Part shown: piece after piece, positions 323-22,046 of the stretch
Layout: each line of letters starts with the position of its first letter
How positions within the stretch are numbered: the stretch's first letter is position 1
Assembly (NCBI GenBank): GCA_943704525.1
Contig: CALSCQ010001945.1
Coordinates: 1-22,046, forward strand
DNA from: Pigoraptor vietnamica
Lineage: Eukaryota > Opisthokonta > Filasterea
Length of the DNA stretch: 22,046 bases
Direction: 5' to 3'
Position numbers and translations under genes: made by a program
Notes under the pieces: generated by a model
What the model saw: the letters and a program-made list of their open reading frames with translations, nothing else
Told to the model about the DNA's origin: nothing
Databases searched by the model: none

Positions 323-1632
323 GTGCGCGAGATTCGGCAGCAGCTCGTGGAGATTATGCAGTCGAACAAGCTGCGCCTTCGCTCGTGCGGCTCGTCGTGG
401 GACGTCGTTCGCCGCACCATCTGCTCGGCGTTCTTCCACCAGGCCGGCCGTCTGAAGGGGATAGGTGCGTCAGCACCGTGCGTGTGTGCGAGTACTGTTG
501 TTCCGAATAGTTGTACTGTTGCCCGCTGAAGAAGTGTGGACAGCAACGCGGAGGCTTGTGTTTGTGCGAATACTTTGTTCCGAATGTTGTACTGCTGCTC
601 GTGCTGTAGCGTGTTCGAACATGAGGGCTTCCCGCTCACTCGTTGCTCCCAACTCTGCGTCGCAGGCGAGTACATCAACATGCGCACGGGCATGGCGTGC
701 CACCTCCACCCGACGAGCGCGCTCTACGGAATGGGCTTTACGCCGGACTACATCGTGTACCACGAGCTCGTCATGACGAGCAAGGAGTACATGCAGTGCG
801 TGACGGCCGTCGACCCGTACTGGCTCGCCGAAATGGGGCCGATGTTCTACTCGATTAAGGAGTCGCACAAGACGCGCATGGTGCGTGGCCCTTGTGTTCT
901 GCTGAACTCTCGTCCGAAAGGATCGCATTTTTAAATCTCTGCGTCTTGTGAGGTTCACATAGCGCACGCAAAATCCGTCGCTTTCAAATTCGAATCGTCA
1001 CGCAACCTGGCGCGTCTCTGCCCGTCGATAGCCTTACCCGTCTTGAGTCGCTTTTTTGTGCCCTCCCTTCCCTCTCTCTCTTCCCCGACGCTTAGAGTCG
1101 ATGGGGGTTCAACCTCTATGACTGCCACGAACTGAGGTCTCTTCCTCGGCGCCTCGTTCTCACGGCCATCATCATGTGGATCGTCTTGCTTGTCTATGAT
1201 TTATGGCACAGACAATCCTACTCACCCTGTTACCCTGTTACTGAACTCGACAGGAGCGGCGCAAGCAGCAGCGCGCGGAGGTGTCCAAGATGGAGGAGGA
1301 GCTCAAGGAGGCCGAGGAACGACGGAAGCGCGAGAAGGAGGAGGAAGAAAGCCGCCTTGCCGCGGAGAAGAAGAGGTGCGTCCCAGTCTCCCCGTTTGAA
1401 GACCTCTTCGTTGAATCCACTTGATCCCGCTGGATTCGAAATCTAAATCCACTTGAACTAGTCATTCTCCTTTGTGTGCGTTTTATGCAATTCCATCCAC
1501 TCGCTCTCTCTCCGTTTTCTGTGTGTTGGCACTCACAGCGCGTGTTGTTACTGTCGCAGCTCTCGCATTGTCACTCCGGGACGCGTCGAGCCGGGCACGC
1601 CGCGCAGGACGCCCGCACGCTTTGGCTTCTGA
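323..1632 (+). CDS. DHX38: Pre-mRNA-splicing ATP-dependent RNA helicase PRP16/DHX38, C-terminal part (5' partial)
   Basis: Four exons join in frame: 323-464, 666-880, 1254-1375 and 1560-1632, ending in TGA. All three internal donors are GTGCGT. The encoded ~183 residues are the end of a DEAH-box spliceosomal helicase: the C-terminal OB-fold region ([44 protein letters not shown]), a charged Glu/Lys coiled segment, and the tail TPGR[15 protein letters not shown]. I recognise that tail from animal PRP16/DHX38, whose C-terminus ends [14 protein letters not shown]16 uses ATP hydrolysis to remodel the spliceosome between the two catalytic steps in the nucleus. The RecA-like helicase domains are not in the window; the gene starts upstream, beyond a (TG)n intron. 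Tail and OB-fold together separate it from PRP2 and PRP22 paralogues. The exons are continuous, with no frame break. Confidence 0.95.
482..598. repeat. Diverged direct repeat in PRP16 intron 465-665
   Basis: Two 41-base copies, 482-522 and 558-598, share the pattern GTG-TGTGCGA-TACT-TTGTTCCGAAT-GTTGTACTG-TGC with a few substitutions and small indels. The separation is 76 bases. It is an intron-internal duplication with no coding effect. Confidence 0.75.
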
Positions 1633-2152
1633 CGCGTGCACTTTTAAAAGTTTAACAACTTCACTCTTCGCCGAGTTTCTTTTGCTTTTTTTTTTAGTTT
1701 TGATCAGGCATAAAGACACACATCTCGCGAACAAAACACACGCGAGCGCGCAGCTATATAATACGACATCCCGGCGTGACTCGAGACGCACGACCGCCGC
1801 ACCGCCGCAGGCGACCATCCCGCGCTGCCCCGTCAACCCGCCGCAACGGGCCCGGAAGGCAGACACGAAAGTCACACGCGCGCGCGCACGCAGCCATGAT
1901 ATACATTGCAAAAAAACCAAAACGACACCGCGAGAAGCGCGCAGACGCGGCGCAGTCAGGCGCGCAACCAATGAAAAGCCATCAGGGGCCTACACGACCC
2001 CATAATACTCCACGGCGCATGCACAGACAAACGCCACGAATGCATCCCGCGGCCGCCGGCCCCTCCACCATGCCGAAAGGACAGCGCGGGGTGTAGTGTC
2101 AGCAACGAGGACGGCTCGCGCGCCCCTAAGTCACGCCGGCACGACGGCCCTT
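1633..2152. other. Tail-to-tail intergenic region, PRP16 to profilin
   Basis: These 520 bases separate the 3' ends of two convergent genes and should hold both 3' UTRs. A T10 tract lies near 1687-1696. A TATA-like TATATAATA sits at 1755-1763 on the plus strand, but no convincing gene follows it: the open frames here are Arg/Pro/Ala-rich with no recognisable domain. No canonical AATAAA is seen close to either stop codon. Confidence 0.6.
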
Positions 2153-2852
2153 TCAGTAGTTGTTCTCCGTGAGGTAGTCGCCGAGCTTCTCGACGACCGA
2201 GTTGCACTGGCCAGCCTGGATGCCACCCTCGTAGACACCGATGAGGAGGGCCTGGTTCGTCTTCACGACGCAGACACCGCCGTCGGCACCCTTGCGGCCG
2301 TAAGCCTTCTTGTTCTGCTCGTACTGGAGGAACGTGTACTTCTGGCCGGCGAGCTTGATGCCGTTGGCATAGAAGCCCTCAGCCTGGGGAGCCTTGATGT
2401 TCTGGACAATGAACTGCACCTCCGCGGGCGCAACCTGGGCGGGCAAAGGGACGGAGACTTCGCGTTAACAACCGGGATGTCGGAAAGTGACCGTGCGACA
2501 TACGAGAAAGACCATAACATACCAACACCACGCGAAAGCAAGTTGTACGTCAACATTCTCAACCAGTGGATGCACGAACAGCGTGTGAATGCATTGCACA
2601 CAACAGCCCACAACTCCCGAGAAGTATTGTGTGAGCATGCAATCGTCAGCATCCACCACATCTGCCACACCCCCGCGGAAATCCGAAACGAGCAGCCCCA
2701 AAAACAAAACACCGGCGCACAAACACCGCGCAGACACTCACGTTGAAGCCCGCCGAGGACGCCCACTTCGTGCCGTCAAGGCCGTGGATGGCAGCCTTGG
2801 ACACGAGGCCCGTGCCGACCAGGTTGGCATCGACGTACTGCTGCCACGACAT
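2153..2852 (-). CDS. pfn: Profilin
   Basis: Two exons on the minus strand, 2852-2742 and 2434-2153, join in phase 0 through a 307-bp GTGAGT...CAG intron to give 130 residues, a normal profilin length. The start MSWQQYVDANLVGTG is the conserved profilin N-terminal helix with the Trp and Tyr that help bind poly-proline. WASSAGF follows at about 30-36, then the YGRKGADGG turn, and the C-terminal helix VVEKLGDYL supplies the other half of the poly-Pro groove. Profilins bind monomeric actin, promote ADP-ATP exchange and deliver actin to formins in the cytoplasm. Codon use is strongly GC-biased, as expected for a highly expressed gene. The start is fixed by MSWQ. The central loop is shorter and more divergent than in Acanthamoeba profilins as I remember them, so it does not place the organism. 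Confidence 0.95.
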
Positions 2853-2954
2853 TTTGTTGTGTGTGTTTTGTGAGACGACGCAAAGAGAAAGCAAGGGAGG
2901 GTTTCGCGTTTGGCCAATTCGACACGTTGCGTCTCTCTCTATTCCTCTTAAGCC

Positions 2955-3032
2955 TGCGTGCGTGCGTGCGTGCGTTGCGTGCGTGCGTGCGTGCGTGCGT
3001 CGTACGTGTGCGTGCGTGTGCGTCGGTGTGTG
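2955..3032. repeat. (CGTG)n tetranucleotide tract in the profilin leader
   Basis: GCGT/CGTG units run almost unbroken, then degrade to CGTGTG. On the profilin coding strand this is (ACGC)n, about 100-180 bases upstream of the ATG, so it is in the 5' leader, a leader intron or the core promoter. No leader intron can be proved from the sequence alone. Confidence 0.85.
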
Positions 3033-3293
3033 TTGTGATGTGTTTCAGGGCCCGTTACATATGAGAGCGACCCTAATAAATTTCATTTCCATACATTTTT
3101 CATAGTGAGCGGGCGCGCAAATAACGTCCGTGTGACCACCCCCGCGTTTTTCCCCTAGAGTGGCCCGTGCGTCAAAACACGGTTATTTCGATCGCCCCTT
3201 TTGTATGAGATTTGTATAGAAATGAAGATTTATTTTGCGCGCCGTTGCAATCGAATGTGTGGGCTGGGCCAGAAGTGGAGAGAAGGTCACCAG

Positions 3294-3685: not shown

Positions 3686-4761
3686 TCAGTCCCGACGGGG
3701 TGCCTGCTGCTGCTGCTGCTTCATAAGCTCGCGAATGTTGTCCTCTGTGTCCTTCAGCACGCGTTCAACAGACATCTTGGCCTTCTGCGCTCACAATAAC
3801 AATTCTGTGGTGAGGGCATGCAGAAATCGCGAATGAACTCGCTCACTCCTGCACACAACACAACACGCACACACACACATACACACACATATACACACAC
3901 ACATACACACACACATCTACACACACACATACACACACATACACACATACACACACACACACATACACACACACACACCTTCAAGTCTGTGACTTCGTTC
4001 TCGTCGTGCTTGATCTTGTGGCGGAGGTCATTCTTCATGTCATCAATAGGAAGGAGGAGAAACCTGCGCAGAGATGTTTGAGAAATCTCGCCAGAAACCG
4101 AAGGCTCTACAGACGAATAACAAAACATGGACGAAGCACAACAATCACAAAGGAAGCCAACGTCACAAAAAATACTTTCGCCCCAAGGGCCACCATTCTC
4201 GTGCAAAAAAAAAAAAAAAAAAAAAAAAAGCTTTCACTCACATCTTGCCCACGGCCTTGTACGTCTTGGTCGCATCGGGCATACGGGCAAGCTCCTGCTC
4301 CGTGAAGTTGGCGCGCTTGATTTCCCTTTGCTTTACCTCAATCTGAGCATTGATGAGGTTCACGCGCCGCTGAGACTCGATCATTTTGGCCTGAAGCTCC
4401 ATAAAGGCCTGTTTTGGGAGGCGCATCAGCGGAAAGCAGTGTTTTCGAGGACCATCTCGCGTTCAGACGATAACAAAGTGGACATTACTGCGAACGACAA
4501 TAGGCACGCGCACTATCCCCGGCATGGGACGACAATACTATGGAAACGCGCTGGACAGCGGCGGCACGATCACAACAAAAAAGGCATGAACGCCGACTCA
4601 AGAGACAGCATAGTACGCTATATACATCACAATAAGCTATCATGCAGCACAATAAAGATCTACAAACCACAGCGCCCTCATGGGGCCGTCAGGAGAACGC
4701 ACCGCACATAACGGAGTGAAACACGAGCACGCACCTTCTGATCCTCACTCTCTCGGCTCAT
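3686..4761 (-). CDS. PFDN1: Prefoldin subunit 1 (beta-type)
   Basis: Four minus-strand exons, 4761-4735, 4408-4242, 4063-3979 and 3784-3686, join in frame to give 125 residues, close to the usual ~122. Donors are GTGCGT, GTGAGT and GTGTGT. The first exon encodes only MSRESEDQK. The rest is a classic beta-prefoldin: an N-terminal coiled-coil helix (ELQAKMIESQRRVNLINAQIE), the short hairpin region around MPDATKTYKAVGKMF, and a C-terminal coiled-coil helix ending TEDNIRELMKQ. The TYKAVGKMF block aligns with MYEGVGRMF of animal PFDN1. Prefoldin is a cytosolic heterohexamer that captures nascent actin and tubulin and passes them to the CCT chaperonin. A Q5 run near the C-terminus comes from CAG repeats. 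Intron 3 starts directly in a (GT)n array. Lying beside profilin links two actin-related genes, but this is probably chance. Confidence 0.93.
3852..3978. repeat. (CA)n microsatellite in prefoldin intron 3
   Basis: CA dinucleotides with TA interruptions on the plus strand, so (GT)n on the prefoldin coding strand. The array begins at the splice donor itself: exon 3 ends at 3979 and the intron reads GTGTGTGTGTG from 3978 downward. The donor is therefore embedded in the repeat. Confidence 0.95.
4205..4229. repeat. A25 tract in prefoldin intron 2
   Basis: Twenty-five A on the plus strand, which is T25 on the coding strand. It begins 13 bases into the intron whose donor is at 4241. A T-rich element just downstream of a donor can recruit TIA-1/Nam8-type splicing factors. 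That role is inference from position. Confidence 0.9.
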
Positions 4762-6069
4762 TTTCACAGCTTGAAATACACCGCTTCAAATACTGCCGTT
4801 GAATCCCGTGTGCACAAACACTCGCGTTAGATTCGTCTATTACAATATTTTCACAAACAGAGAAGGGCATCTTTTTTCGGTTCATCGTAGGTGTGCGGAA
4901 TGCACGGCTGCGTGCCAATGATTTCCGATCGTAATCATTTCCGTAAACTGATTTACGATTTCAGTCTCATTTTAAGCGAGTTCTCGCAAGAAATGTTGCC
5001 AGGGACAACGTTCGATGAGTCTAAATTTCGCCGGGAACAGAAAAGGGGTGACGCATTTATTACTGCATCCGTTCAGTATGGAAAATGTATGGGCCTCATT
5101 TTTATTTGGCATCGGTCGCGAGGGGCGACCCACTGCACATCATGCAAAATCTATAGAAAGACGTTCTCTCTCAAGTTGCATGACTTTGTGGTGCCATGGG
5201 AAGTTCCCACGCAAAAAGGTCCCAATTTAGGCACTCCTTCAAATTAACGCCTCCTAGTGACGTGCGTGAGTTGGGACTCTCGTCGATTCACGTTCCCATA
5301 AAGGGGAACTTCCCACGAAAAAAAGGGCCAAGTTTTGGAAGTCTTTCAAATTAATGACTCCTAGCGACGCGCTGGAGTTGGGACTCCATCGCTCACGTTC
5401 CCACAAACAAGCCACGCTCAGTCCTCACTCGCGAAGGTGCCGTTGTGCATCTGCAGGGGATTGCGCGCACGTCGCCTCACACGCACACGCACTCCGAGCG
5501 TCTCTGTGTGTCTCTGTGTGTGTCCGCACTCTTGCGCGTTCATGTTATGTCTGCTTGACTATTACTGCGGAATACTTTTTGCGTGGAGACGCGTTTTGGA
5601 TAAGCCGCTTCGAAACACCATACTCGCTGACGTGTTGCGTGCGCGCCGTCACTCGCTAGCCTGCCATTTCCGTAATTTCGATTGAGAAGGTCCTCCTTTC
5701 GACGTGGCCCGCGCTGTACGTTGCGTCGCTCTCGGTGCGCGCCCGTGCGGTGACTTTTTCGCGGCGTCGCTCTCGCACTTGTTTTCCGCGTGAAACCATG
5801 CGCTCTGCCGGCTACCAGCGCCACGGCAACGCGCTTTAGGGAGAGGCGCGTGGTGCCATCGCCGTGCGTCGCGTCCCTTTGGGTCTGCGCTTGCGGAGTT
5901 TTGCATCCCCATCGCCGCGTCAGTGCGCGTGGTTGCTAGCGTCGGGCGGCCGTGAGGGCCGGGGCACCCCTCGTTCGCGAGTTTCGTGCGTCGACCGCTG
6001 CGGGTCGCGTGCAGGCGCTGAGGGCGCGCGTGTCCTGTGCTTGGTGGTGGACGCGGCGCGTACGAGAAG
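4762..6069. other. 1.3 kb divergent promoter region, prefoldin / cyclase-kinase
   Basis: Prefoldin (minus) and the cyclase-kinase (plus) point away from this segment, so it should contain both promoters. The left half, about 4762-5420, is visibly more AT-rich than the GC-rich flanks. It carries an imperfect hairpin (CGTAATCA...TGATTTACG, about 4931-4957) and a ~100 bp tandem repeat at 5198-5403. The right half returns to GC-rich sequence with a TG-rich patch near 5503-5522. A 118-codon open frame at 4891-5247 has no recognisable domain, uses AT-rich codons unlike the neighbouring genes, and runs into the tandem repeat, so I do not call it a gene. Confidence 0.6.
5198..5403. repeat. ~100 bp imperfect tandem repeat in a divergent promoter
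   Basis: Copy A is 5198-5298 (101 bp) and copy B is 5304-5403 (100 bp), with a 5-bp spacer. They are roughly three-quarters identical by eye. Each begins with the near-palindrome GGGAA(G/C)TTCCCACG and ends with CACGTTCCCA, so each unit has short inverted ends (TGGGAA / TTCCCA). Best-conserved inner words are TTTCAAATTAA (TTCAAATTAA in A), CTCCTAG and GAGTTGGGACTC. Word conservation with a drifting background suggests selected binding sites, or an old small element duplicated in tandem. Confidence 0.85.
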
Positions 6070-8756
6070 ATGGCGGACAGTCAATCCAACGGCAAGGTTG
6101 GGCTTGAGAACGGCAGCCATGACGCGCTCAGCGAAATACCCGCGAGCCTGGCGCCCGCGTCCGAAGCACCGACGGGCGAAGTCGCGCTCGTGTTCACGGA
6201 CATTCAGGGCAGCACGCAGCTGTGGGACACGGTGCCGGAGACGATGAAGCAGTCGATCATTATGCACAACAACATGATGCGGCGCCTCCTCAAAAAGTAC
6301 CACGGCTACGAGGTCAAGACGGAAGGCGACGCGTTCATGGTCGCGTTCCAGGACGCCGTCAACGCGCTCAAGTGGTGCCTGGAGGCGCAGCTCGAGCTGA
6401 TGCACACCAAGTGGCCCAAGGAGCTGCTGGACGTCGAGGCCGGTAAGGAAGAGGTGGCGGAGGACGGGGTGGCGCTGTTCCGCGGCCTTCGCGTGCGAAT
6501 GGGCATCCACAAGGGCTCGCCGCACTGCGAGCCGGACCCGACGCACGGGCGCATGGACTATTTTGGTCCCGTGGTGAATCGCGCGGCGCGCGTAGCGGGC
6601 ATTGCGGAGGGCGGGCAGATTATCGTGTCGCGAAGCGTGATGGAAGAAGTCACGAACAGGTGGGACGAGCTCCAAGAGTTCGACCCCGTGCAGGCGGAGC
6701 TTGGCTCGTTCAAGCTCAAGGGCCTCGGCGACGCCGAGTTTCTCACTCAGGTTTGTGTGCATGCGTGCGTGCGTGGTGCGTGCTGTGTCTCTGTCTGTGC
6801 GTGCGTGCTTGTAGATGGCTACGCCGCCGGATTATCTCATCCAATCGATTCTACTCTCTTGCTGCGCACAGATTTTGCCGCGAGAGCTGCCACGGCAATT
6901 TGGCACGCACGACACGTCGGACCCCTGGTTCTCGTTCACCAGCGGCCGCGACATCAACAAGTCGTCCAAGGCCGAGTCCACGCGGCGAACAAGCAGCCAG
7001 GCGACCGCCCCGCGTGCCCTCCCATTGCCAAAGGTACGCCCTCTTCCGTGTGTGTGTGTGCGAGGGCGTGCGTGTGTTGTTTGTGCATGCGTGTGTGTAG
7101 TGTTGCGATGAGTTGCTGTGACTGTACTCGCACCTTCCTTTGCGTTGTGCTCATCCTTCCCCGTCGCACCTGCAGCCGGAGGAGAACAACATTGCGTGGC
7201 TGGTGCCCTCGGCGGAGATCCGGTTGGGCGTGAAGCTCGGCTCTGGTGCGAGCGGTGAAATGTACAAGGCCGACTGGAAGGGCATGAAGGTCGCCGTCAA
7301 GAAGCTCTTCCGACAGAAGATGGACGACACGGCGCTCGAGGACTGGAAGACGGAGCTCAGTATCCTCAGGTGCGTCGACGACGTGGTCGCAGTGCGATCG
7401 ATCTCATGTCTCTGTTTTGGGTGTGCGTTGTTTGAGAGTTGTTCAGTGTCTCGTGTGTCGGCATGTGTCTCTAACCCCCACTCTTCGCTTGTGTGGTGCA
7501 GCCAAATCCGGCACCCGAACTGCATCCTCTTTATGGGCGCCATCCTCGAACCAGGCAAGATGTGGATCATCAGCGAGTACATGCCCAAGGGATCGCTCCA
7601 CGACGTGCTCCACGACACATCGCAGTCGCTCTCCTGGCCGCAGCGCATCAACATGTCCAAGGACGTCGCGCGCGCGATGCTCTACCTCCACACGTACAAG
7701 CCCCCCATCATCCACCGAGACCTGAAGAGCCACAACATGCTGGTGCGTGTCGGGGAGCTTTTCTGTCCGTACATTCTTTGCTCCGGGTACCTGCTTTCTC
7801 GCTCTATTCGCCCGCGCACGCACGTATGTCTAATGTGCTTCCCTCTCTCTCTCTCTTGTGATTTGCAGGTCGACAACAACTTTGTCGTGAAAGTGGGAGA
7901 CTTCGGCTTTGCGCGAATCCTCGCGTCCTCTTCGGTCATGACGCAGTGCGGCACGATGTGCTGGACGGCGCCCGAGATTCTTCGCGGCAAGAAGTACGAT
8001 GAGAAGGTTGACCTCTATTCGTACGGCATTGTGCTCTGGGAAATTGGCACGCGCCAAGACCCGCACGAGGGCGTCAACGCGCTCAAGCTCGCGATGAAGG
8101 TCTTGCAGGGTGGGTGTCCCTTCCCCTGTCTCCCTTCAACACATTATTGCCGCACACTCGCTTTCCCTGTGTTCTCGAGTGTCTGGACCACCCGTCGCGC
8201 CCTTTGTGTTATGTGCGTTTCCCTGGCTGACGGTGTGTTGCTGTTTTGGTGCTTCGCAGGTGAGCGACCGCCCATTCCCAAGTACTTCCCTGACTTTTAC
8301 ACGGAGCTCATGACCGCGTGCTGGGCGGACGACCCCGCGGCACGACCCGACTTTGGCGAGGTGCGTCGTCTCCACATCTCGATTCATATGCTTCCTTCTC
8401 TCTCCCTTCTTTCTCTTGTCTCCGTCTGTCGCCCTTTTCGCGTGTGCTGAATGGGTTCGACGCGGCGCAGGTTCTCGACAAGCTCGACAGCATCAGCGTG
8501 CAGCAGCTCAATTCGATCTCGAGGGCATCCATTTCGATCAAGAGCATTACGTCAAAGAAGAAGACGGTGCGTGTTTCCGCGTGTGTGTGCACTTGTGAGA
8601 GCGCGTTTGTGTCGACGAGGGTTGTGCTCGTCCATGCGCGCTCTGTGTGGTCGCACACGCGGCATCCAACTCACTCTCTGCATCCCATTGCCCTCGCAGG
8701 CGGACCCCTCGGCGTCAGAAAAGAACCAGCAGTCGTCAGCGTGCGCGATTCTCTGA
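6070..8756 (+). CDS. Class III adenylyl cyclase fused to a TKL-type protein kinase, with C-terminal CaaX box
   Basis: Eight exons (6070-6750, 6872-7033, 7176-7369, 7502-7742, 7869-8109, 8260-8360, 8471-8566, 8700-8756) join in frame to 590 residues. Residues ~36-225 are a class III cyclase domain: FTDIQGST with metal Asp44, KTEGD with Lys83 and Asp87, and DYFGPVVNRAAR with Asp163, Asn170 and Arg174. Both metal Asps, the ATP-selecting Lys/Asp pair and the transition-state Asn/Arg are all present, so an active cAMP-making homodimer is predicted. Residues ~296-550 are a complete kinase: GSGASG loop, Lys323 (VAVKK), Glu341, HRDLKSHN (Asp419), DFGFAR (Asp437), WTAPEIL. The HRDLKSHN motif suggests Ser/Thr specificity. 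The last exon encodes a Ser-rich tail ending CAIL. ATG 6070 is in good context (GAAGATGG). Cyclase-TKL kinase fusions are known in some protists; the anchor is the unusual part. No transmembrane segment is seen. Confidence 0.9.
8742..8753 (+). other. CaaX prenylation motif (CAIL)
   Basis: The last four codons before TGA read Cys-Ala-Ile-Leu. Cys-aliphatic-aliphatic-Leu is the classic substrate of geranylgeranyltransferase I. A short basic stretch (SKKK, ending at residue 571) lies ~16 residues upstream, similar to the hypervariable tails of Ras/Rho GTPases. Exon 8 alone encodes the tail, so splicing could include or omit the anchor. Prenylation is predicted, not shown. Confidence 0.6.
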
Positions 8757-9320
8757 ACGCCGCCAATCCCTGCGTTGATCGCGCCTCGCGTCCGCTGCCA
8801 TTGCGCCCTGCCGCTCGCTCGTCTCTTATCGTGTGCCTTTTGCCGCTCGCGCGTACCGCTTCCGTCGTCGCCATTCACCCGCTGCGTTCACACTACTGTT
8901 CCCCTGCGAGTCGCTTGACCGCTATGTATTTCTATCCCGTGTGGTCATGCCCTCCTCCGAGCGCGCTACAATGTCTCCCGCTCGCGGGACATGCGGTCTG
9001 ACCCACGTCTTCACTCCCGCGTTAAGTCCCCTCTCCCTCTGTTTCGCCCTCCACACGCATTTCGCTCGTGCGTTGCGTGCGCGCTTCACTGTGCGTGCTT
9101 GTGCTTCCGTCGCCGCGCGGCGTGCGACCGAGAACAGCGCGCTTTTTCTCACGGGGCCGCGAACCGCCGTGTTCGCCCTCCGGTGTTGCGCTTACAGTAG
9201 TGCAACCATCTTTCTCGTTTCTCTTCGCGTGCGTGCTCGCGTGCCGCCCCTCTCGTTGAGGGCTTTCTGCGCTACTGGAATATAATCCCTTCTTGACAAG
9301 CATGGTACGACACTTGAGTT
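8757..9320. other. Tail-to-tail intergenic region, cyclase-kinase to dehydrogenase
   Basis: These 564 bases lie between two convergent stop codons. The sequence is pyrimidine- and GC-rich on the plus strand with an AT patch at about 9279-9289 (GGAATATAATC). I find no coding sequence, RNA gene or repeat here. It should contain both 3' UTRs. Confidence 0.55.
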
Positions 9321-10529
9321 TTATGTGGCGTGCATGTTGCCGTGGAGCTCCACGCCCACGGCGGATTCGAACAGCCGCACTAGCTCTGTTTCATCGGCTT
9401 CCTGGGGCATCACTTCTGCGCCGGCTGAGATGGTCGCAGCCGCAGACGGAATGACACGTGCGAGCTCCCCTACGCCGTCCGATACAATCTTCGCGCCAAT
9501 GCGCGCATCCTTTGCCCACAAGCGAAGGGACCCACGCCCACCGTACGCAAAGCGGCGCGTGAGCACCTCGGACGGAAAGCGCCTCTCCGTCATGAGGGAG
9601 CGTCCCGACGAGCCGTTGATCGCCTCGAGCGCGGCTGACGGCGAGACACCTGCGCGCGCAAGTGCGGCGAGACCTTCCGATGCCACGACAAAGTGGGCGA
9701 CGGCCATGGCGTTGTTGACGGCTTTCAGCGTGTGGCCGGCCCCAATGGCCCCCGCATGCACGACGCGCGCGCAGTAGGCGTTGAGTGCGAACCGCACATC
9801 CTCCAGCACCACTGCTTCGCCTCCAACCATTGTGGTAAGGGAGCCCGCTGCCGCGCCCTGCGGCCCCTGGAAACATTGAACGGCGCGATGAAAATGCACA
9901 CGCGGAATTAGCACATCGAAGTCTGGTGCAACGGCAGTGTGTGTCTGGAAGTGTGTTACACTACAACGACAGCATGCTTGCTTGCGTTGACTCACCCCAG
10001 ACACTGGCGCATCCAGAAATGCGACGCCAACTTCCGCGAGGGAGGCAGCAATGGAACGCGTGTGCTCCGGATCCCCAGTCGTGATATCAATCCACACTGC
10101 ATGTATTGGGTAAATGTCAACGACGATGGTAACAACAAACCCAATGCTCTGGAGTACACTTTCATGGACACGGCGAAGAGGGAATTCGCACAGAGCTCGC
10201 ACACCTGTCCCGCGTTGCAGCGACGGGCGCAGCGCCTCCGCGATCTCCGCCACTTGCGTCGATGTAGGCAAACATGTGAAGACAAACTGCTTAACTCCAT
10301 CCGATCCCTCCTCGTCGCTTGGAGTCAAAACAACTTCTGAGAGGGATGCAACGGCGACCGTCCCGTGTGCAGCTGCGTGTGCCTCGCCCTTCGCAGCCGT
10401 GCGCGCCCACACGCGCACTTCGGCAAACGCGCCTGATGCAACGAGGCGCGCGGCAATGGGACCCCCCATGGAGCCAAGGCCCACAAACGCCGCCAGAGAG
10501 CGCGAGCTGGGTCGTTCTGGCGGGGCCAT
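9321..10529 (-). CDS. 3-hydroxyisobutyrate dehydrogenase-like beta-hydroxyacid dehydrogenase
   Basis: Three minus-strand exons, 10529-10205, 10096-9996 and 9866-9321, join in frame to 323 residues, the usual length for this family. Near the N-terminus, FVGLGSMGGPIAARL is the Rossmann NAD(P)-binding motif. GTVWIDITTGDP and DAPVSGGPQGAAAGSLTTMVGG are the substrate-binding region. GHTLKAVNNAM carries the catalytic Lys (residue 190) and Asn, and KDARIGAKI is the C-terminal family motif. Members oxidise or reduce small beta-hydroxyacids (3-hydroxyisobutyrate in valine breakdown, tartronate semialdehyde, glyoxylate). The exact substrate cannot be read from the sequence. Both introns are also open in the reading frame (an unspliced frame would be 402 residues). 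The family motifs are only continuous after splicing, which decides the model. ATG 10529 (CCATGG context) leaves only ~13 residues before the fold, so a mitochondrial presequence is doubtful. Confidence 0.92.
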   Translation of the reverse strand: MAPPERPSSRSLAAFVGLGSMGGPIAARLVASGAFAEVRVWARTAAKGEAHAAAHGTVAVASLSEVVLTPSDEEGSDGVKQFVFTCLPTSTQVAEIAEALRPSLQRGTGVRALCEFPLRRVHESVLQSIGFVVTIVVDIYPIHAVWIDITTGDPEHTRSIAASLAEVGVAFLDAPVSGVSQRKQACCRCSVTHFQTHTAVAPDFDVLIPRVHFHRAVQCFQGPQGAAAGSLTTMVGGEAVVLEDVRFALNAYCARVVHAGAIGAGHTLKAVNNAMAVAHFVVASEGLAALARAGVSPSAALEAINGSSGRSLMTERRFPSEVLTRRFAYGGRGSLRLWAKDARIGAKIVSDGVGELARVIPSAAATISAGAEVMPQEADETELVRLFESAVGVELHGNMHAT

Positions 10530-10881
10530 GGCAGGAGAGACGCTGACCGTAAGAGTACGTTATCCTAAGTGGTCAAGAGCTCTACGGTCAGTTGAACAGC
10601 TGCACCTCGACACCCATGTCCGGAGAGTGTCCGGACTCCCAGAGCCACCCCGGATGTTGCGGGAATGCATCAGCCGAACCCGGCAAGTGGAACACCTTTC
10701 AAACTCAGAGTGGCTTCTCTCAGTAGCGGCGAATCACATGCTCACTTTTGTGTCCCACGCACTCTGCTGTGGAGAGCACTTCGAAGTTTTGATCCTTGCG
10801 CTTCTCGTTTTCTTTTGGTTCTGTTTGCGGCGTCACGACCGTAAGGCGACTGATTGGGGGGGTTGGGTTGGCGAAGCGACA
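10530..10881. promoter_or_regulatory. Divergent promoter region, dehydrogenase / meckelin
   Basis: These 352 bases separate two genes pointing apart, so they should serve both. A short direct repeat TGTCCGGA occurs near 10618-10625, with GTGTCCGGAC following at about 10627-10636. A G7 run lies at about 10856-10862, just before the meckelin start. No TATA box, repeat array or RNA gene is evident. Confidence 0.5.
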
Positions 10882-13442: not shown

Positions 13443-16400
13443 GCTGTTGTTCTCATCGCTTCGGACAACAACGCAGCTGTGCGACACGAGCGCGCAAGTG
13501 GGGCTTGCGTACCTCGAATTCGGCGTGCCTTACGAACTATCGTGCGCAGTCCCGATCGCTTCCCTGGTGGCGCGCACGTCGCCCGTGTTCTACGACATAT
13601 GTATCCGCCAATTGCTTTTAGATTCGCAACTTTGCAAGTGTCATATGCGTGCGTGCATGCGTGCGATGGTGCTCAACTCTTAGCCCAGGATTGAGGCGGA
13701 AGGCAGAATATGTGACAATTCGAATTGGCCCTTGACCTCACTTTGTCTCGTGTTTCGGCAGACTTCGACGACGGGACGACCCTCGTGCCCGTCCCCGTGC
13801 AAGTCAGCAACTACCGCGACGCCTCGGGCAACGCCGTCAACTTGGAGGGCAACCCCCAGCTCACCCGCAGGTGCGCACTCGCAATGTTTTCCCTCTTTTT
13901 TTTCTTCTTCTTCTTCTTTTGTTGTCTCTACCGAGGCGTCTGTCGCGTATGTACGACTGTTTCATTATAACTGCGCTCTGTCGAGGTCAAACGTGCGACT
14001 GCTGTGGTCAAGCGTGCGTCTGCCGTGGGTCTCACATGCGTCTGTGCGCGCACTCCAGGATGTTCCTCGTCGATACGGCCTCCGGCATTCCCCCGGGTGA
14101 CGCGGCGAACCAGCAGCGCGTCGTGCGATACGCCTCCGGAATTGCGTTCGAGTGGGTGAAGCGCCGTCGGTGTTGCCACCGTTTGTGCATTTCCACGCGC
14201 GCACGTGTCTGTGCGCGTGCTTGTACCGTGGCGTAATTCGCTTGTGCGTCCTGCCGTTATTCACCGCACTTGCCACTGCGTAGGCTGATGCTCAAAGACA
14301 GCGGCGATGGTCGCATTTACGTTCCCGTCGTATACGTGACCTACTCTTCGGCCATCGTCGGCGCCGGTGGCGTTGTGGAGGTGCGTGTGCGCCAGAGTGC
14401 CGTTGTTAATTGGAGATGTCTGACAATAGGAAGCCGAGATTTCGCACAGCGCCTCTCTGTCGTGACTATGCAAGATGGCCTGAGGCGCCTCTCCCAGTCT
14501 CTAAGTTCAGCCCGTTCCCTTATACTCAGGCTGCGTTCGTGGTTGATTACAACATGTCGATGACGAGCACGTGGCGCGGCCTCGCGATTGCGCTGGCCAT
14601 CTTCTCTGCCATCGCATTCCTCACGGCGTGCTTCAAGCTCAGCGCGTGGCGCAGGCGCATGCGCTCGTATTCGCTCGACTTTTCGGTGGGTTTTCATTCA
14701 TCGCGAGTGCAGGACAGCTTGCGTTGCGGCGTTTGCATGCACGTGTATTCTCTCCCTCTCCTATGGGGAGGTGGATTAGTGTTGTGTACTTGTGTGTGCG
14801 TCTGCGCCTGTTGGTCTAAACCCCACCCTACCTCCCACTTTTCCCAGATGATGTGGAACTTCTTCCTCATCGCGTGCCAGGAGTTCAGCAACTGGTACTT
14901 TTTGCTGACCTTCGGCTGCTGCCTCTACTACCTCGTGTTCTTCAAGGGTCAGACGACGGTCAAGACGCTCCTTCCCTCGGACGCGCAGATGCAGACGTTC
15001 CGCATTTTCATCGGCATCACATTTGCGATGAAGGTGTGTTTTGGTGTTTGGTGTTTGAGGCTTTTTTGATGTGCGCTTGTTGTTTGTTTCTTGGTGTTTG
15101 TGGTTCCTTTGATGTGCGCTTGTTGTTTGTTGTTTGGTGTTGTGGTTTCTTGCGGCGACCGGGGAAGGCGGAGAGTGCTCTGTATTGCGTGTCGGCGTAT
15201 AGGCAGCTGTCGTTTTGGTTATCAGATGTGCGCGTGCGTCGTGCGTTACAAGGGGGGGAGCAATTGAAAAGCGCAAGACTGTTCGTGTTATCTCATTCCC
15301 TCTCGTCACGCAGGCTGTGCAAGTGTGGGGCCTCGTGCGCCGCCAGGTCAGCTCGGACATCTTCTTCATCGACTGGGAGAAGAGCAAGGTGCGTGCTCGT
15401 GTTTGTCGCAATTGCAGCGGTGGGCCTTTTCTCTCCATGTGTACATTATTTGAATGCGACCATTTTATTCTTTCCTCTCCGGTGCATCGGTGCGTCTATG
15501 CGCTCTCACATGTGCCACTTTGCGCAGGGAATGGTGGTGTCGGCTGCGAGCGTGCTCCAAAACGACGCAACCGCTCGCCCTGCTCCTGTAAGCATTTGGC
15601 GCACGTACTTTGTGGCCAACGAGTGGAACGAAATTCAGGTGCGTGGTGGCGAAGGGATCACGTGTGATTCTGTTGTCGACGTCATCGCATAAGTCCATGT
15701 CTCGTTGCTTTGACGTCTCTCTTCCACTCACTCACTCACACGCACACACACACACACATGCTCCTGCGACCCCCTTCCCCTTTGTTCGCAGACGGTGCGC
15801 AAGACGAGCATGAACTTCCAGCTCTTCATGCTTGCCTTCATCCTCGTGGCCGTGGACGTGCAATACCTCGCGACGGAGGTGCCCAGCTCCTCACTCGACA
15901 AGGCCCCCATCAACCCCGTCCTCCGCTTCGCCGTCGCAACGTCCATTTGGCTGGGCCTCGCTCTCGTTCAGGTGCGTGTCTTGGCTTGGACGCATGTTGT
16001 TGTTGCCACTTGCGCAAGCTGCGTCACACGCTAGCATTGTCAGTCTGTCTCGTGTGTCTCGGCCTGGACGCGTGGTTGTCGCCACGGTGCTACAGTGCAA
16101 GCTTCATCCAACCATCAAACGCCGGCGTCGTCACTCGAGCCACACGGAGCCATCATAGTCGCGCTCAGTTGCTCGTGGCCCCTCGAGAAAATTTCAACGA
16201 CTGACTTTGTTTGTCGGCGCCGCAGCTGCTTTACAACTACTTTATCTACGAGCGCTTCGTGGAGGACAAGATCGGGCAGTTCAGCGACCTCTGCTCCGTC
16301 TCGAACGTCTCCGTGTTTGTGATGGAGGAACCCTACTTTGGGCACTATCTGCATGGCCGCTCGGTGCACGGGTACGCCGACACGGACATGTGGGAGATGA

Positions 16401-17656
16401 ACGAGCACTTGCGCAAGGAAGAGGCAAGTGCTGGGCCGCGTCTGTTACTGGCCGCTCGTGTCGCTTTTCGATTCGGAGACGAATGCAGTTGCGCGCAAAA
16501 CGCTTCATGCATACTACTCTCTATTCCCCACTCTTGGACAGACGTCAAGCGCATTCTCCCTGCGTGCGACTTTCTGCGTGCGGCACGCTCACGCTCTGTG
16601 CTTTCCTGTCTTCCGTCGTGCAGGAGGACCTGTGCGGTCACCGCGGCTTGCTTCCCAACTCGGAGAACCAGTCGTTTGAAATGCATCTTCCAACGGCCCT
16701 CCGCGAGCACTACGACCGCGTCTTCCTCTCGCTTGTGGAGGAGCAGAAGGGCGCGCGCGTCAAGGCGACGGCGTCGAACACTGGCGGCGGTGAGAGTCAC
16801 TGGCCGCATGTTTAATTTGAAGCTTGCGCGGTGGTGTTTGACATTGTAGGATCTCTCGGCTATCGTTCGCCGTCTCATTCCATCCTTCTTCCCGCGCCCA
16901 GGTCGCGTGCAGTCGCAGCGAAGCGGGCGCGGAATTGGCGACAAGACGATCCAGGCTTACCTCGCCGTGAACAGGTTCCTCGCGGCCTTCATCGACCATG
17001 TGAGTTCGGCCGGCCAAGTGTGAGCCCGCTTTACTGCTCGTTGGGGTCTCACAGCACTGTCTGTTGCGTGTCGCCCTTTCGACGCGTGCTCTCCCGTCGG
17101 TCGCTAACACGTCCAATGGACCTTGCGTGCAGGCGCTGAAGGAGGTGGACTACGTCGTCAAGGACAAGCTGTTCCTGGAGCAGCTCGTTGGCCTTGCGCC
17201 ACGTGCGGCCGACAAGGGTGTCTTCTACAACGGTTGGTGTCCGTGTGTGCGTTGGTGCACGGCGCCGAACGCGCGGCGGTCGTTGCGACTGCAGGGAATG
17301 CGATAGTTGGCACGTCCAAATTCCGCTCGCGCAGACGCTTCGTGCTCTCCTTGGTTTCGTGTCCTGTGTAGGCAGTGATGGGTTGTCAAATTCCCGGCTC
17401 ACTCTCTCTGCCCCTTCTTCTAACGGCGACAGAGGGCGGCCACGCGTACTCCAAGACGCTCTTCTACGGCAACGAGTGGACGCTCCTTCTGCTCGACATT
17501 ATGTTCTACGCCATCGTCGACCTCATCTTTGGCAATACGATCGTGTCGGTCGTCGCGACGTACGTCTTTGACCGCCTCCTGTGCGCCTACAGGAACTCGG
17601 CGTCGCAGAGCAACCTCGCGCGCAAGACGCTTGTCGACAAGCGCTTCCTTATCTAA
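10882..17656 (+). CDS. TMEM67: Meckelin (TMEM67), ciliary transition-zone membrane protein
   Basis: 23 exons join in frame: 10882-11074, 11201-11289, 11409-11508, 11842-12011, 12162-12245, 12367-12474, 12605-12744, 12907-13003, 13161-13268, 13477-13600, 13762-13870, 14059-14169, 14284-14380, 14530-14685, 14848-15033, 15314-15388, 15528-15638, 15792-15971, 16226-16423, 16624-16789, 16902-16999, 17133-17232, 17433-17656. The product is 1007 residues (human 995). It has a signal peptide (~1-28), a Cys-rich region with CGTNQ repeats (~35-180), an ectodomain, then transmembrane helices from ~528. Diagnostic blocks: VSIWRTYFVANEWNEIQ (670-686), HGRSVHGYADTDMWEMN and the C-terminus NLARKTLVDKRFLI, matching human NLASKTLVDQRFLI. 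Meckelin works with the MKS module at the ciliary gate and has a reported ER-quality-control role. ATG 10882 has strong context (GACAATGG) and starts the signal peptide. One intron is GC-AG; the exon 12 donor is the least certain junction. Confidence 0.95.
11553..11802. repeat. (TG)n microsatellite in meckelin intron 3
   Basis: Long TG runs broken by ATGTGCG blocks occupy most of the 333-base intron 11509-11841. The TG strand is the coding strand. The repeated TGATGTGCGTG interruptions show that the array grew by duplicating larger TG-plus-interruption units, not only by single-unit slippage. Confidence 0.95.
13401..13440. repeat. (TG)n microsatellite in meckelin intron 9
   Basis: Twenty TG/TC units on the coding strand, starting 132 bases after the donor at 13269 and ending 36 bases before the acceptor at 13476. 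Confidence 0.95.
15068..15152. repeat. 43-bp tandem duplication in meckelin intron 15
   Basis: GATGTGCGCTTGTTGTTTGTT occurs at 15068 and again at 15111, each followed by a similar GT-rich stretch, giving two ~43-bp units in tandem. It lies entirely within the intron 15034-15313 and has no coding effect. Confidence 0.8.
16424..16623 (+). other. GC-AG intron in meckelin (intron 19)
   Basis: Exon 19 ends ...CGC AAG GAA GAG and the intron begins GCAAGT, the strong consensus around GC donors. The acceptor is GTCGTGCAG. Joining these gives LRKEEEDLCGHRGLLPN, which follows human meckelin (LKREAENLCSQRGLVPN) with no gap. The nearest GT, two codons further, would break the frame. Confidence 0.85.
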
Positions 17657-17867: not shown

Positions 17868-19313
17868 TCAAACAGCGATTACAAATTTCGCAATCGCCGG
17901 GTGCGTCGCCACTTCGACTATAGGACCGGGGCGACCCGTGCATATCGGGCGCGGCCAATTCCACGACGGCACCCACTGCACCCGCGCACCCTCCTTCCAC
18001 GCCTCCGTGGGGAGTCGGTGTCGCAGATCGTACTGTGCGCTTACGGCAGCGACGCGCTCGTCCACCGTCGCCTCGTCGAGCGCCTCCCAGTTGACCTGTT
18101 CCGCGCCGTCCATGCCGAGGTAGAGAGCCACCCAACCGCGCGCCGATTCCACGTTGGCGAACTTTCTAAACAGCGCGACGCCGACGGGGCCGCGCGTGTG
18201 CATCACCTCTTCCACGAGGCGGCGGTCTCGCGGCGTGAAGTTCGTGCGCAGCCAGCGCGGCAGCAGTTGGGCGTATCGCTCGCGTAGCGACGTGGGCGTG
18301 CGCCCCCCGAACTGCTGCGCAAGGCGCGCCCAGTCATTACGGGCCGAGGCCACGGCAGCGACCAGCGCCGCATCTTCCTCGGCGGTGAACGGACTGCCGG
18401 GAGCGCCCGTCCCCCCCGCGGTGGCCGTCGAGTCGTTCGTCTGCCACTCGAAGCAGACCGTCGCCATCGCCGCGCACTCGTCGGGCAGCCGTCCGTGTCC
18501 CACAGCCCACGCAATGCCGATCCAGTCCTTCCCGCGCTCGGCGATTGCCTCGAGCAGCCGCAGGCGCTCCTCGTCGCTCCACGGTGCGTTGTTCTCGAAC
18601 GTGCGCCAAGTGGCCGCCGCCGCCATCGCGCGCGCCTTTTCGTCGTTGACTGCGGGCTCCTGCTCGACGACGATGCCGCCGCGGACATTGTGGCTCGACC
18701 TGCCCGTCAGCTGTTCGTAGCGCGCGCGCACGGCCTCTTCCGTGCGGCCGACCGCCGTTGCAATCTGCAACCAATTGGCCCGCATCTGCGCCATTTCGGC
18801 GATTGTTCGGTCCTCGTCGAACGAAAAGTCGGGGTCGCCCTCGTGGTCCCGCACGGCTGCCCCGTTGCCCGCGCTGTCCTCGCTCGGCTCCAGAAGATAG
18901 TCGGTCCAGTACTCTGCGGACGGCGCAGGCTCGGATGTTACCCCGGGTTCTTGCGGGGAAGGTGATGGTGGGGGAGGTGATGGGGGTGCGACGAATGACG
19001 ACGACGCCATGAGGGCGTCCATGTTGAAGAGGCCCCCCAAATACTTTTCCTTGGCGCGCGCGTACGTGGGCGTTGCCGAAAACTTGGTCCACGCCGACGG
19101 ACCGTGCGGCTGCTTCGACAGCGGGTCCGCCTTCGGTTGCGCCGGCAGTCCGCGCGGTTGCTTCGACAGTGGGGCGGCCTTTGACTTTTTGGCCGCCTTC
19201 TGCGGTGGCACCGCCATTCGCGACTTGGCACGCGCGCGCACTGCGGTGCATGGGGAAGGCACGAGGGGCCTCAAGCGCATGCGCGCAAGGGCGTTTGCGA
19301 GGGCCATGTGCAT
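17868..19313 (-). CDS. Four-repeat Myb/SANT-domain protein
   Basis: An open frame without introns encodes about 481 residues. The N-terminal ~100 residues are basic and contain two copies of the motif PLSKQP (KAAPLSKQPRG, KADPLSKQPHG), followed by a Pro/Ser tract. Four Myb/SANT-like repeats follow, each with spaced Trp or Phe: about 163-202 (FSFDEDRTIAEM...NWLQIATAVG), 243-287 (PWSDEERLRLLEAI...DWIGIAWAVG), 308-350 (PFTAEEDAALVAAV...DWARLAQQFGGRT) and 358-399 (NFTPRDRRLVEEV). The third is the most canonical. Such repeats bind DNA or histone tails in the nucleus. Four tandem repeats recall SNAPC4-type or plant multi-repeat Myb proteins, but I cannot assign an orthologue. The start is uncertain: Met codons at 19313, 19307, 19280 and 19217 are all possible, and an out-of-frame ATG at 19335 precedes them. 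The gene faces the meckelin 3' end with 211 bases between. Confidence 0.75.
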   Translation of the reverse strand: MHMALANALARMRLRPLVPSPCTAVRARAKSRMAVPPQKAAKKSKAAPLSKQPRGLPAQPKADPLSKQPHGPSAWTKFSATPTYARAKEKYLGGLFNMDALMASSSFVAPPSPPPPSPSPQEPGVTSEPAPSAEYWTDYLLEPSEDSAGNGAAVRDHEGDPDFSFDEDRTIAEMAQMRANWLQIATAVGRTEEAVRARYEQLTGRSSHNVRGGIVVEQEPAVNDEKARAMAAAATWRTFENNAPWSDEERLRLLEAIAERGKDWIGIAWAVGHGRLPDECAAMATVCFEWQTNDSTATAGGTGAPGSPFTAEEDAALVAAVASARNDWARLAQQFGGRTPTSLRERYAQLLPRWLRTNFTPRDRRLVEEVMHTRGPVGVALFRKFANVESARGWVALYLGMDGAEQVNWEALDEATVDERVAAVSAQYDLRHRLPTEAWKEGARVQWVPSWNWPRPICTGRPGPIVEVATHPAIAKFVIAV

Positions 19314-19474
19314 GCAGCAGGCCGGCCGCCACCATCCCCTTTCGTCTGTGTCTTGCGCGATACACGGAACACTAGTAGAGAGGGAAAGGGAGAGAGAGAA
19401 AAAAAAAGAATGAGAGGCGCACATGCGTAACATCTCCCCCGGACAAAAAGAGTCGATCGTTTCTGATGCGAACC

Positions 19475-19480
19475 AAAAAA
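19475..19480 (-). terminator. Pol III terminator of tRNA-Ala
   Basis: Six T on the minus strand, one base after the tRNA discriminator position, the standard RNA polymerase III stop. Confidence 0.85.
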
Positions 19481-19481
19481 G

Positions 19482-19554
19482 TGGAGGTTTGGGGAATCGA
19501 ACCCCAGGCCTCACGCATGCGAAGCGCGCGCTCTACCAACTGAGCTAAACCCCC
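19482..19554 (-). tRNA. trnA-CGC: tRNA-Ala(CGC)
   Basis: The 73-base minus-strand sequence folds into a full cloverleaf: acceptor GGGGGTT/AACCTCC, D-arm GCTC-AGTTGGTA-GAGC, anticodon arm CGCGC-TTCGCAT-GCGTG, variable AGGCC, T-arm TGGGG-TTCGATT-CCCCA, discriminator A. Anticodon CGC reads GCG (Ala). The G3:U70 wobble pair, the main alanine identity element, is present. There is no intron and no encoded CCA, as usual for eukaryotic nuclear tRNAs. T6 at 19480-19475 is a Pol III terminator. It sits between two divergent protein genes. Confidence 0.97.
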
Positions 19555-20394: not shown

Positions 20395-21905
20395 TTACCG
20401 CCTACGGCGCGACGAAACGGGGGCAGCGACCGGCTCGGACGCCGCCGCCTTGCCACGTGTCGCACGATGGGCGGGCTTCTCGTCGGCGACCACAGCGCCG
20501 TCGCCATTCTCTGCCTTGGCCCGCTTGCCCGCTGGCGCAACAGCCTCTTCCTCGCTCTCTCCCTTCACGACAGCGGTGCGCGCGCGCTTTGTGCCCTTTG
20601 GGGACTCGGGTTGGGCTGGCGCTGCAGCCGCTGCGTCGACCTTCGCCGGCCGCCCTCGCTTCTTGGGCGTGGCTGTCGCAGCTCTGTCCGCGTCCTCCTC
20701 CTCCTTCACAGTCTTGGCGCGCTTTGCATTTGGTTTGGTCTCTTCATCGTCCCCGTTGTCGTCGTCTGCCGCCGCCCTCTTCTTGGGACTCTTCTTCGAC
20801 CCCTTGACAGCGCCGTTGTCGCCGTCCGTCGGCGCGGTAGTGTCGTCGGAGGATGCCTTTTTTGCGGACTTGTCGCCGGAGGATTCCTTTTTTGCGGACT
20901 TGGCACCAGAGCCGGGCGTTTTCCCCTGGACGGCGGGTGCAAAGGCGCTCGTGCGCCCGCCCACCGTAATGAACTCGACCTGTGTGTCGACAGGGGCATG
21001 CGTCGGTCATTCGCAACGTCACTCACACACGCAAACTTTGCGATATGAATCGACTATCATCATGCACACTCTTCTCACACACAACAGTAATATGAATGTA
21101 GGACGAGGATAGCAAGGACACGCACCTTGTGTCCGTCCGCGGTGACCGGGTTCTTCTTCTTGCCCTTCCCCCACCGCACGTGGAAAATCCACGACGCCGG
21201 ATACTTCTCGCAGTCGCCGCCGAGATCGACCGCCGTGCGGCACACGTACTGAAGCTTGTCGTGCAGCGCCGCCGTCTGCTCGTCCGTCAGCGCATTCGAG
21301 CGCGTCTCCGGGTGCACGCTCGCTTGGTAGAGAACCTGCGAATAGGGCAGGCGGGAACGATGGGGAGAGTGAGCATAACAACAGCAAACGCTGCACAAGG
21401 AAAAAACACGGCACACATACGGCGCCAACACATGCACTGCATATTACATAACACACACCACCGCGCGCACACGCACGCACACACGCACGCACCTCGTCCG
21501 CGACCCAATTTCCGACGCCCGCGGAAAACTCCTGGTCCAGCAGTACGGCCTTGACGGGCGCACCGCGAGCGCGGATCAACTTGCGAAATTCATCGAGCGG
21601 TATCATAGAGAGGACGGGATCGAAACCGAGACGCGCACGCAGCTCGGCGGGGTCGGAGAGTGGCCGCACGCGCGCAAGACGCCGCGCGTCCGTGAACGCA
21701 ACGCGCACGCCGTTGTCCGTCTCGAACCACAGTTTCGTGAAGCGCGGCGGCCACTGCGCGCCGTCGCCGTCCTTAGCGCTCGAGCTGACGAGCTTGATTT
21801 TGGCGTAACCGGTGGCGGCGGCGCCAGACACCAAAAAGTTGCCCGTCATGCCCGGCTGAAAGTTGATGCAGGGGCCGCTGTTGAACACGATCCACAGCTG
21901 CTTTC
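20395..21905 (-). CDS. FPG: Formamidopyrimidine-DNA glycosylase (plant/fungal type) with AT-hook tail, 5' partial
   Basis: Three minus-strand exons, 21905-21493, 21335-21126 and 20979-20395, join in frame (donors GTGCGT). The ~402 residues lack the N-terminus with catalytic Pro/Glu, which lies outside the window. Visible parts: the beta-sandwich (FQPGMTGNFLVSG, VAFTDARRLARVR), the H2TH region (LLDQEFSAGVGNWVADEVLYQASVHP) and the C-terminal hairpin (YPASWIFH...VEFITVGGRTSAF). No four-Cys zinc finger is present, so this is the zincless-finger class seen in plants and fungi. FPG enzymes excise oxidised purines such as FapyGua and 8-oxoG and nick the strand (base excision repair). A ~185-residue Lys/Ala/Ser/acidic tail follows, with several basic clusters suitable as nuclear signals, an AT-hook (KKRGRPAK), a duplicated SAKK-x-SS unit, and the end SSRRRR. 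The exon at 21905 begins within a Gly codon shared with a missing upstream exon. Confidence 0.92.
20641..20664 (-). other. AT-hook motif in the glycosylase tail
   Basis: Codons for KKRGRPAK. The RGRP core flanked by basic residues is the AT-hook that binds the minor groove of AT-rich DNA. It lies ~100 residues beyond the end of the conserved glycosylase fold, in a Lys-rich disordered tail. Confidence 0.8.
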
Positions 21906-22046
21906 CTGCGCGTGCCGCAGAGTGAACGAGCATTATCCGTGTTAGAACGACAATCGCTGTCTTCGGTGTCATGCGTGTGTGTGTGTGTGTGTCTGTGTGT
22001 GTGTGTATGTGTGTGTGTGTGGGGGGGGGGGGGGGGGGGGGGGGGG
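21906..22046. repeat. Upstream flank of FPG: (TG)n and G26 at the window end
   Basis: After the acceptor at 21906 the glycosylase intron (or other upstream sequence) continues to the end of the window. TG repeats fill 21975-22020 and 22021-22046 is 26 consecutive G. A pure G run at a sequence end is often a read or assembly artefact. Here TG is on the non-coding strand of the gene, unlike most intron arrays in this window. Confidence 0.85.

Follow-up and report, generated by a model that had tools for sequence, protein, structure and literature searches.

An eight-exon gene on the forward strand of Pigoraptor vietnamica contig CALSCQ010001945.1 (positions 6070 to 8756) encodes a predicted protein of 590 amino acids in which a class III cyclase is followed by a TKL kinase. 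The window analyzed here is the whole 22,046-nucleotide stretch of that contig that contains the gene. This is a real, somewhat unusual fusion gene, as judged from its sequence. Its best explanation is probably a two-enzyme protein without a transmembrane (TM) helix that is most likely geranylgeranylated at its C-terminus and thereby held on a membrane. Cyclase-kinase fusions are already known and are numerous in some protists. The cyclase-first, TM-free arrangement and the CaaX anchor look new, and the novelty would lie in their combination in one gene. The features of the gene are as follows:

6070..6750, plus strand: exon 1, N-terminal tail and predicted class III adenylyl cyclase catalytic domain, residues 1-227
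6872..7033, plus strand: exon 2, end of the cyclase region and linker, residues 228-281
7176..7369, plus strand: exon 3, start of the predicted TKL kinase domain, with the Gly loop GSGASGEMYKA and the VAVK lysine
7502..7742, plus strand: exon 4, kinase domain up to the catalytic loop HRDLKSHN
7869..8109, plus strand: exon 5, kinase DFG, activation segment, and APE
8260..8360, plus strand: exon 6, kinase C-lobe
8471..8566, plus strand: exon 7, end of the kinase and tail with SKKKT, residues 541-572
8567..8699, plus strand: intron 7, GTGCGT...CTCGCAG; no in-frame stop upon retention, codons score as non-coding
8700..8756, plus strand: exon 8, 57 bases, ADPSASEKNQQSSA-CAIL-stop, a predicted CaaX box
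8742..8753, plus strand: codons of the CaaX box CAIL, GGTase-I type

The joined frame is 1773 nucleotides in length, giving 590 amino acids plus the stop. All seven introns begin with GT and end with AG, and they range from 110 to 150 nucleotides in size. The donor GTGCGT is used by four of the seven. The open frame containing the ATG at position 6070 starts at position 6022, and no other in-frame ATG is present between these two positions. A Pfam search of the 590-residue protein (E<=0.001) returned three families, which are Guanylate_cyc, PK_Tyr_Ser-Thr, and Pkinase. Together with the eight-exon model, these matches bear out the preliminary description, in which a cyclase and a TKL kinase had been reported as fused in a single polypeptide.

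The Guanylate_cyc match (PF00211) spans residues 34-201 with an E-value of 1.6e-28 and a score of 100 bits, against a cut-off of 21.9. The closest solved cyclase by sequence is Trypanosoma GRESAG 4.1 (E 3.1e-28), and GRESAG 4.3 is also close. Six diagnostic residues are intact in the one chain and align with GRESAG 4.1. These are D44 and D87, which we take to be the metal aspartates, K83 and D163, presumably the purine pair and of the ATP type among class III cyclases, and the pair N170 and R174. The cyclase had been called complete on the basis of these same residue types, and each of them is in place. By sequence, the N-terminal domain can be placed among the class III adenylyl cyclases, in the trypanosome/Cyr1-like (PP2C/Cyr1-like) subfamily. 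Since one chain carries both half-sites, the protein is expected to form a homodimer that has two active sites and, given the intact residues, would make cAMP.

The PK_Tyr_Ser-Thr match (PF07714) spans residues 297-545 with an E-value of 4.3e-63 and a score of 213.5 bits, and an overlapping Pkinase match is found at residues 299-543. The kinase was described as complete, and its motifs are all present: K323 in VAVK, HRDLKSHN at 417-424, DFG at 437-439, and APE at 460-462. The best solved kinase chains are those of plant CTR1 (E 2.8e-61 and 1.4e-60). The third in the ranking is an EGFR-named entry and the fourth is a Src/Abl ancestor, followed by MLT, MLK, and other MAP3Ks. With its class assigned by the closest solved chains, the C-terminal domain appears to be an active-looking TKL kinase of the CTR1/MLK-like kind, and it would be expected to have kinase activity.

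The protein ends in SKKKTADPSASEKNQQSSACAIL followed by the stop, that is, in CAIL-stop with the cysteine at residue 587. A codon score was used to assess this end. Its training set was small: exons 1-6 and two further long open frames from the window represented coding sequence, with introns 1-6 as the contrast. Exon 7 scores +48.6 bits. Exon 8, with 18 codons, reaches +18.6 bits in the frame of the gene model, compared with -3.9 and +5.7 in its two alternative frames. Between positions 8757 and 9300 the score is negative in all three frames. The stop and the CAIL box are thus well supported as part of a sequence-based gene model, in agreement with the GGTase-I-type end first read from this DNA. 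The basic stretch said to precede CAIL is a looser fit: the KKK at residues 569-571 exists, but it is separated from Cys587 by the 15 residues TADPSASEKNQQSSA, which include one Lys, one Asp, and one Glu. A polybasic second signal is not required by every CaaX protein. No transmembrane helix is expected, as had been proposed, since the mean Kyte-Doolittle value across all 19-residue windows of the protein reaches a maximum of 1.16.

The genome of P. vietnamica (32.5 Mb, 1395 contigs) was searched exon by exon for the prenylation machinery. A GGTase-I beta piece on contig C835 matches the solved GGTase-I beta with an E-value of 3e-10 and no other prenyltransferase. The second Prenyltrans locus, on contig C342, is the RabGGTase beta. 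This exon-by-exon search turned up no separate farnesyltransferase beta in the genome, although it may miss one. On contig C1257, PPTA repeats point to the alpha subunit of some prenyltransferase. ICMT-family pieces lie on contig C79; this family also gives matches in five of 14 prokaryote controls. The Rce1-like candidate is a single weak piece on contig C564 (E 2.2e-6, one internal stop), from a family that matches in 11 of 14 prokaryote controls.

The C-termini of Ras-superfamily proteins were read in 16 stretches picked from 90 matches. Five of these have a CxxL end in the frame of the G domain (CLIL, CLIL, CVLL, CSLL, and CSLL), one ends in CTIS, and the remaining ten have other or unresolved ends. 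In both CLIL GTPases a KKG adjoins the cysteine, unlike the more distant KKK of the cyclase-kinase protein. CAIL fits the CxxL pattern of the GTPases of this genome. Geranylgeranylation of the cyclase-kinase protein at CAIL is likely because the organism has its own CxxL-ending GTPases and a GGTase-I beta. Membrane anchoring by this lipid, as the preliminary description had it, is likely on the same grounds and stays a prediction.

Pieces of cyclase genes number 96 on 40 contigs when counted exon by exon, so that the genes are fewer than the pieces. A search with the window cyclase found four other loci, on contigs C799, C822, C931 (two domains), and C328, and no kinase-like piece was found within the 6.7-8 kb around each. 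At positions 2400-4008 of C799 (plus strand), a PP2C domain lies shortly ahead of the same-subfamily cyclase, as in fungal Cyr1, where a PP2C domain precedes the cyclase. At positions 2310-3906 of C931 (plus strand), the cyclase domains are in tandem, and the second reads YCRVDGAEELW at the expected first metal Asp; this second domain may be inactive.

Domain order was compared in two scans. Eight cyclase loci (C121, C800, C803, C650, C145, C91, C188, and C437) were picked because their contigs also carry a kinase piece, using a list in which 144 of 374 kinase candidates were scored. The kinase is on the N-terminal side and on the same strand in all eight. A second same-strand kinase downstream was not seen in the seven loci with at least 2.5 kb of downstream sequence; C145 has only about 80 bases. 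The other scan took in 30 cyclase loci with about 1.5 kb on each side. Both scans used a kinase profile made from the window kinase, which may miss other kinases. A kinase piece was found in 13 of the 30; in 11 it lies on the N-terminal side in the same orientation, in one it is on the opposite strand, and in one it is C-terminal, the last being the window gene itself. Both scans together cover 28 of the 40 cyclase contigs and give 12 kinase-first contigs and one cyclase-first contig, that of the window. The cyclase-first order thus appears unique as far as these 28 contigs go. On C145, positions 631-1734 (minus strand) hold a kinase that is followed by an HNOBA-type linker and, after this, by cyclase pieces. 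Linkers of the HNOBA type are typical of guanylyl cyclases.

Cyclase-kinase fusions had been said to be known in protists, and the literature agrees. The available excerpt of PMC4053784 gives 67 nucleotidyl cyclases in the Acanthamoeba genome, each having an extracellular portion, a single transmembrane helix, and two kinases that flank the cyclase, and it attributes the same layout to giant viruses. The excerpt of PMC4758236 places 66 of the 67 Acanthamoeba castellanii cyclases, and 43 from Physarum polycephalum, in a transmembrane cyclase-kinase family. The window protein resembles these amoebozoan proteins, as they are outlined in those excerpts, in joining a nucleotidyl cyclase and a serine/threonine kinase domain in one polypeptide. 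It differs from them in having no TM helix, one kinase placed after the cyclase instead of two flanking ones, and a CaaX end. A search of viral contigs gave no relatives; two stretches there match a pattern, and neither is a relative.

Receptor guanylyl cyclases carry a kinase-like domain followed by a cyclase. They share with the window protein the presence of both domains in one chain, and kinase-first examples such as C145 occur in the same genome. Unlike them, the window protein has the reversed order, the ATP-type K83/D163, no receptor or TM part, and a cyclase of another subfamily. The trypanosomatid GRESAG 4.1 and fungal Cyr1 resemble it in the cyclase itself, GRESAG 4.1 being the nearest solved chain and the same-subfamily C799 having the Cyr1-like PP2C-cyclase arrangement. 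In contrast to both, the window protein carries a kinase, and no LRR, RA, or PP2C domain was found in it by Pfam. For kinases with a CaaX end, the excerpt of PMC3307776 names GRK1, GRK7, and oomycete GRKs with CSIL or CILL ends. These resemble the window protein, to the extent that they are covered there, in being protein kinases with a C-terminal CaaX box of their own. GRKs differ in that they are AGC-group kinases with an RGS-homology domain and have no cyclase. No prenylated or CaaX-ending nucleotidyl cyclase was found described in the titles and abstract starts of open-licence PMC papers, which is weak evidence.

Two alternatives concern the C-terminus. The last exon could be wrong, with intron 7 retained or other splice sites used, so that the protein would end differently. 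If retained, intron 7 would let the frame run on to about position 9001, as it has no in-frame stop, and an end other than CAIL results from two of the five alternative acceptors and eight of the 14 alternative donors listed. Against this, the CAIL end survives the other three acceptors and six donors listed, the donor of intron 7 is the same GTGCGT as in introns 3, 4, and 6, and its acceptor has the highest pyrimidine content among the six listed. Exon 8 also scores as coding in its predicted frame, whereas the retained intron scores -30.5 bits over 44 codons. A wrong last exon is therefore very unlikely. An alternative that deserves more weight, though we still think it unlikely, is that of a genuine fusion protein whose CAIL end arose by chance or goes unused, which would make it a cytosolic enzyme. 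Selection on Cys587 cannot be revealed by one gene alone, the KKK is not adjacent to this cysteine, and the related cyclases at C799 and C328 have frames that finish in ADMSG and FSTNL with no CaaX end, these being open-frame ends before last-exon modeling. The window as a whole also offers more room for chance: with an estimated number of about ten genes, a CaaL end somewhere among them has a probability of roughly 0.0025-0.0045. On the other side, the chance of a C-x-[ILVM]-L C-terminus for this one protein, from its own composition, is about 2.5e-4, or 4.5e-4 when the last residue may be L, F, or M. Its tail is also hydrophilic, the genome has a GGTase-I beta, and CAIL resembles the CLIL, CVLL, and CSLL ends of the organism's own GTPases.

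A further alternative would make the protein a truncated representative of either the amoebozoan kinase-cyclase-kinase receptor family or the receptor guanylyl cyclases. Both families likewise join a cyclase and a kinase, and this genome has many kinase-first cyclases. The cyclase search is at odds with such an origin, as it finds besides the window gene only the four loci without a nearby kinase-like piece, and the cyclase profile misses the kinase-first cyclases except for one C145 piece with an E-value of 0.05. The reversed domain order and the missing transmembrane segment also count against it. This origin is considered highly improbable. Membership of the transmembrane cyclase-kinase family was rejected on the single kinase after the cyclase, the lack of a hydrophobic segment, and the different cyclase subfamily. 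The protein likewise falls outside the receptor guanylyl cyclases, having no kinase homology domain before the cyclase, no receptor part, and no TM helix.

In the preferred reading of a geranylgeranylated two-enzyme protein, CAIL would act as a GGTase-I-type signal and the lipid tail would hold the protein on a membrane. Class III cyclases reach membranes through transmembrane helices or through partners such as Ras or G proteins, and Cyr1-type cyclases are recruited by binding prenylated Ras. Here, most plausibly, that recruitment would be built into the enzyme itself, and the attached kinase would phosphorylate the cyclase or nearby targets. The preliminary description had suggested that cAMP could act on the attached kinase. 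This idea is unsupported because Pfam detected no domain in the protein that binds cyclic nucleotides, and it was rejected; we also know of no TKL kinase that responds to cAMP. The cAMP would instead act in trans through separate cyclic-nucleotide-binding proteins of the organism, and the 39 cNMP-binding pieces found elsewhere in the genome at E<=0.001 could be such receivers. More tentatively, the protein may be a cyclase of the Cyr1/GRESAG subfamily that has been freed from recruitment by a prenylated GTPase. With its own geranylgeranyl anchor and kinase, it would form a self-recruiting membrane unit for cAMP production and phosphorylation, with an origin independent of the receptor-type cyclase-kinases. 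If true, this would add a further means of positioning cAMP production, by a prenyl anchor on the cyclase itself and with a kinase held next to it, and a second protist route to cyclase-kinase joining would exist beside the kinase-first receptor types.

Several other genes are present in the window. A 3-hydroxyisobutyrate dehydrogenase-like gene (9324-10559, minus strand) is convergent with the cyclase-kinase gene. Also on the minus strand are a Profilin gene of at least two exons (2156-3044), a prefoldin-like gene (4241-4462), a Myb-domain gene (17871-19532), a tRNA-Ala (CGC) gene (19481-19554), and a formamidopyrimidine-DNA glycosylase-like gene (21022-22044). On the plus strand, a Meckelin (TMEM67) gene has exons at 14410-15066 and 16205-16846. 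Meckelin is a ciliary transition-zone protein, and its gene suggests that P. vietnamica has or had cilia.
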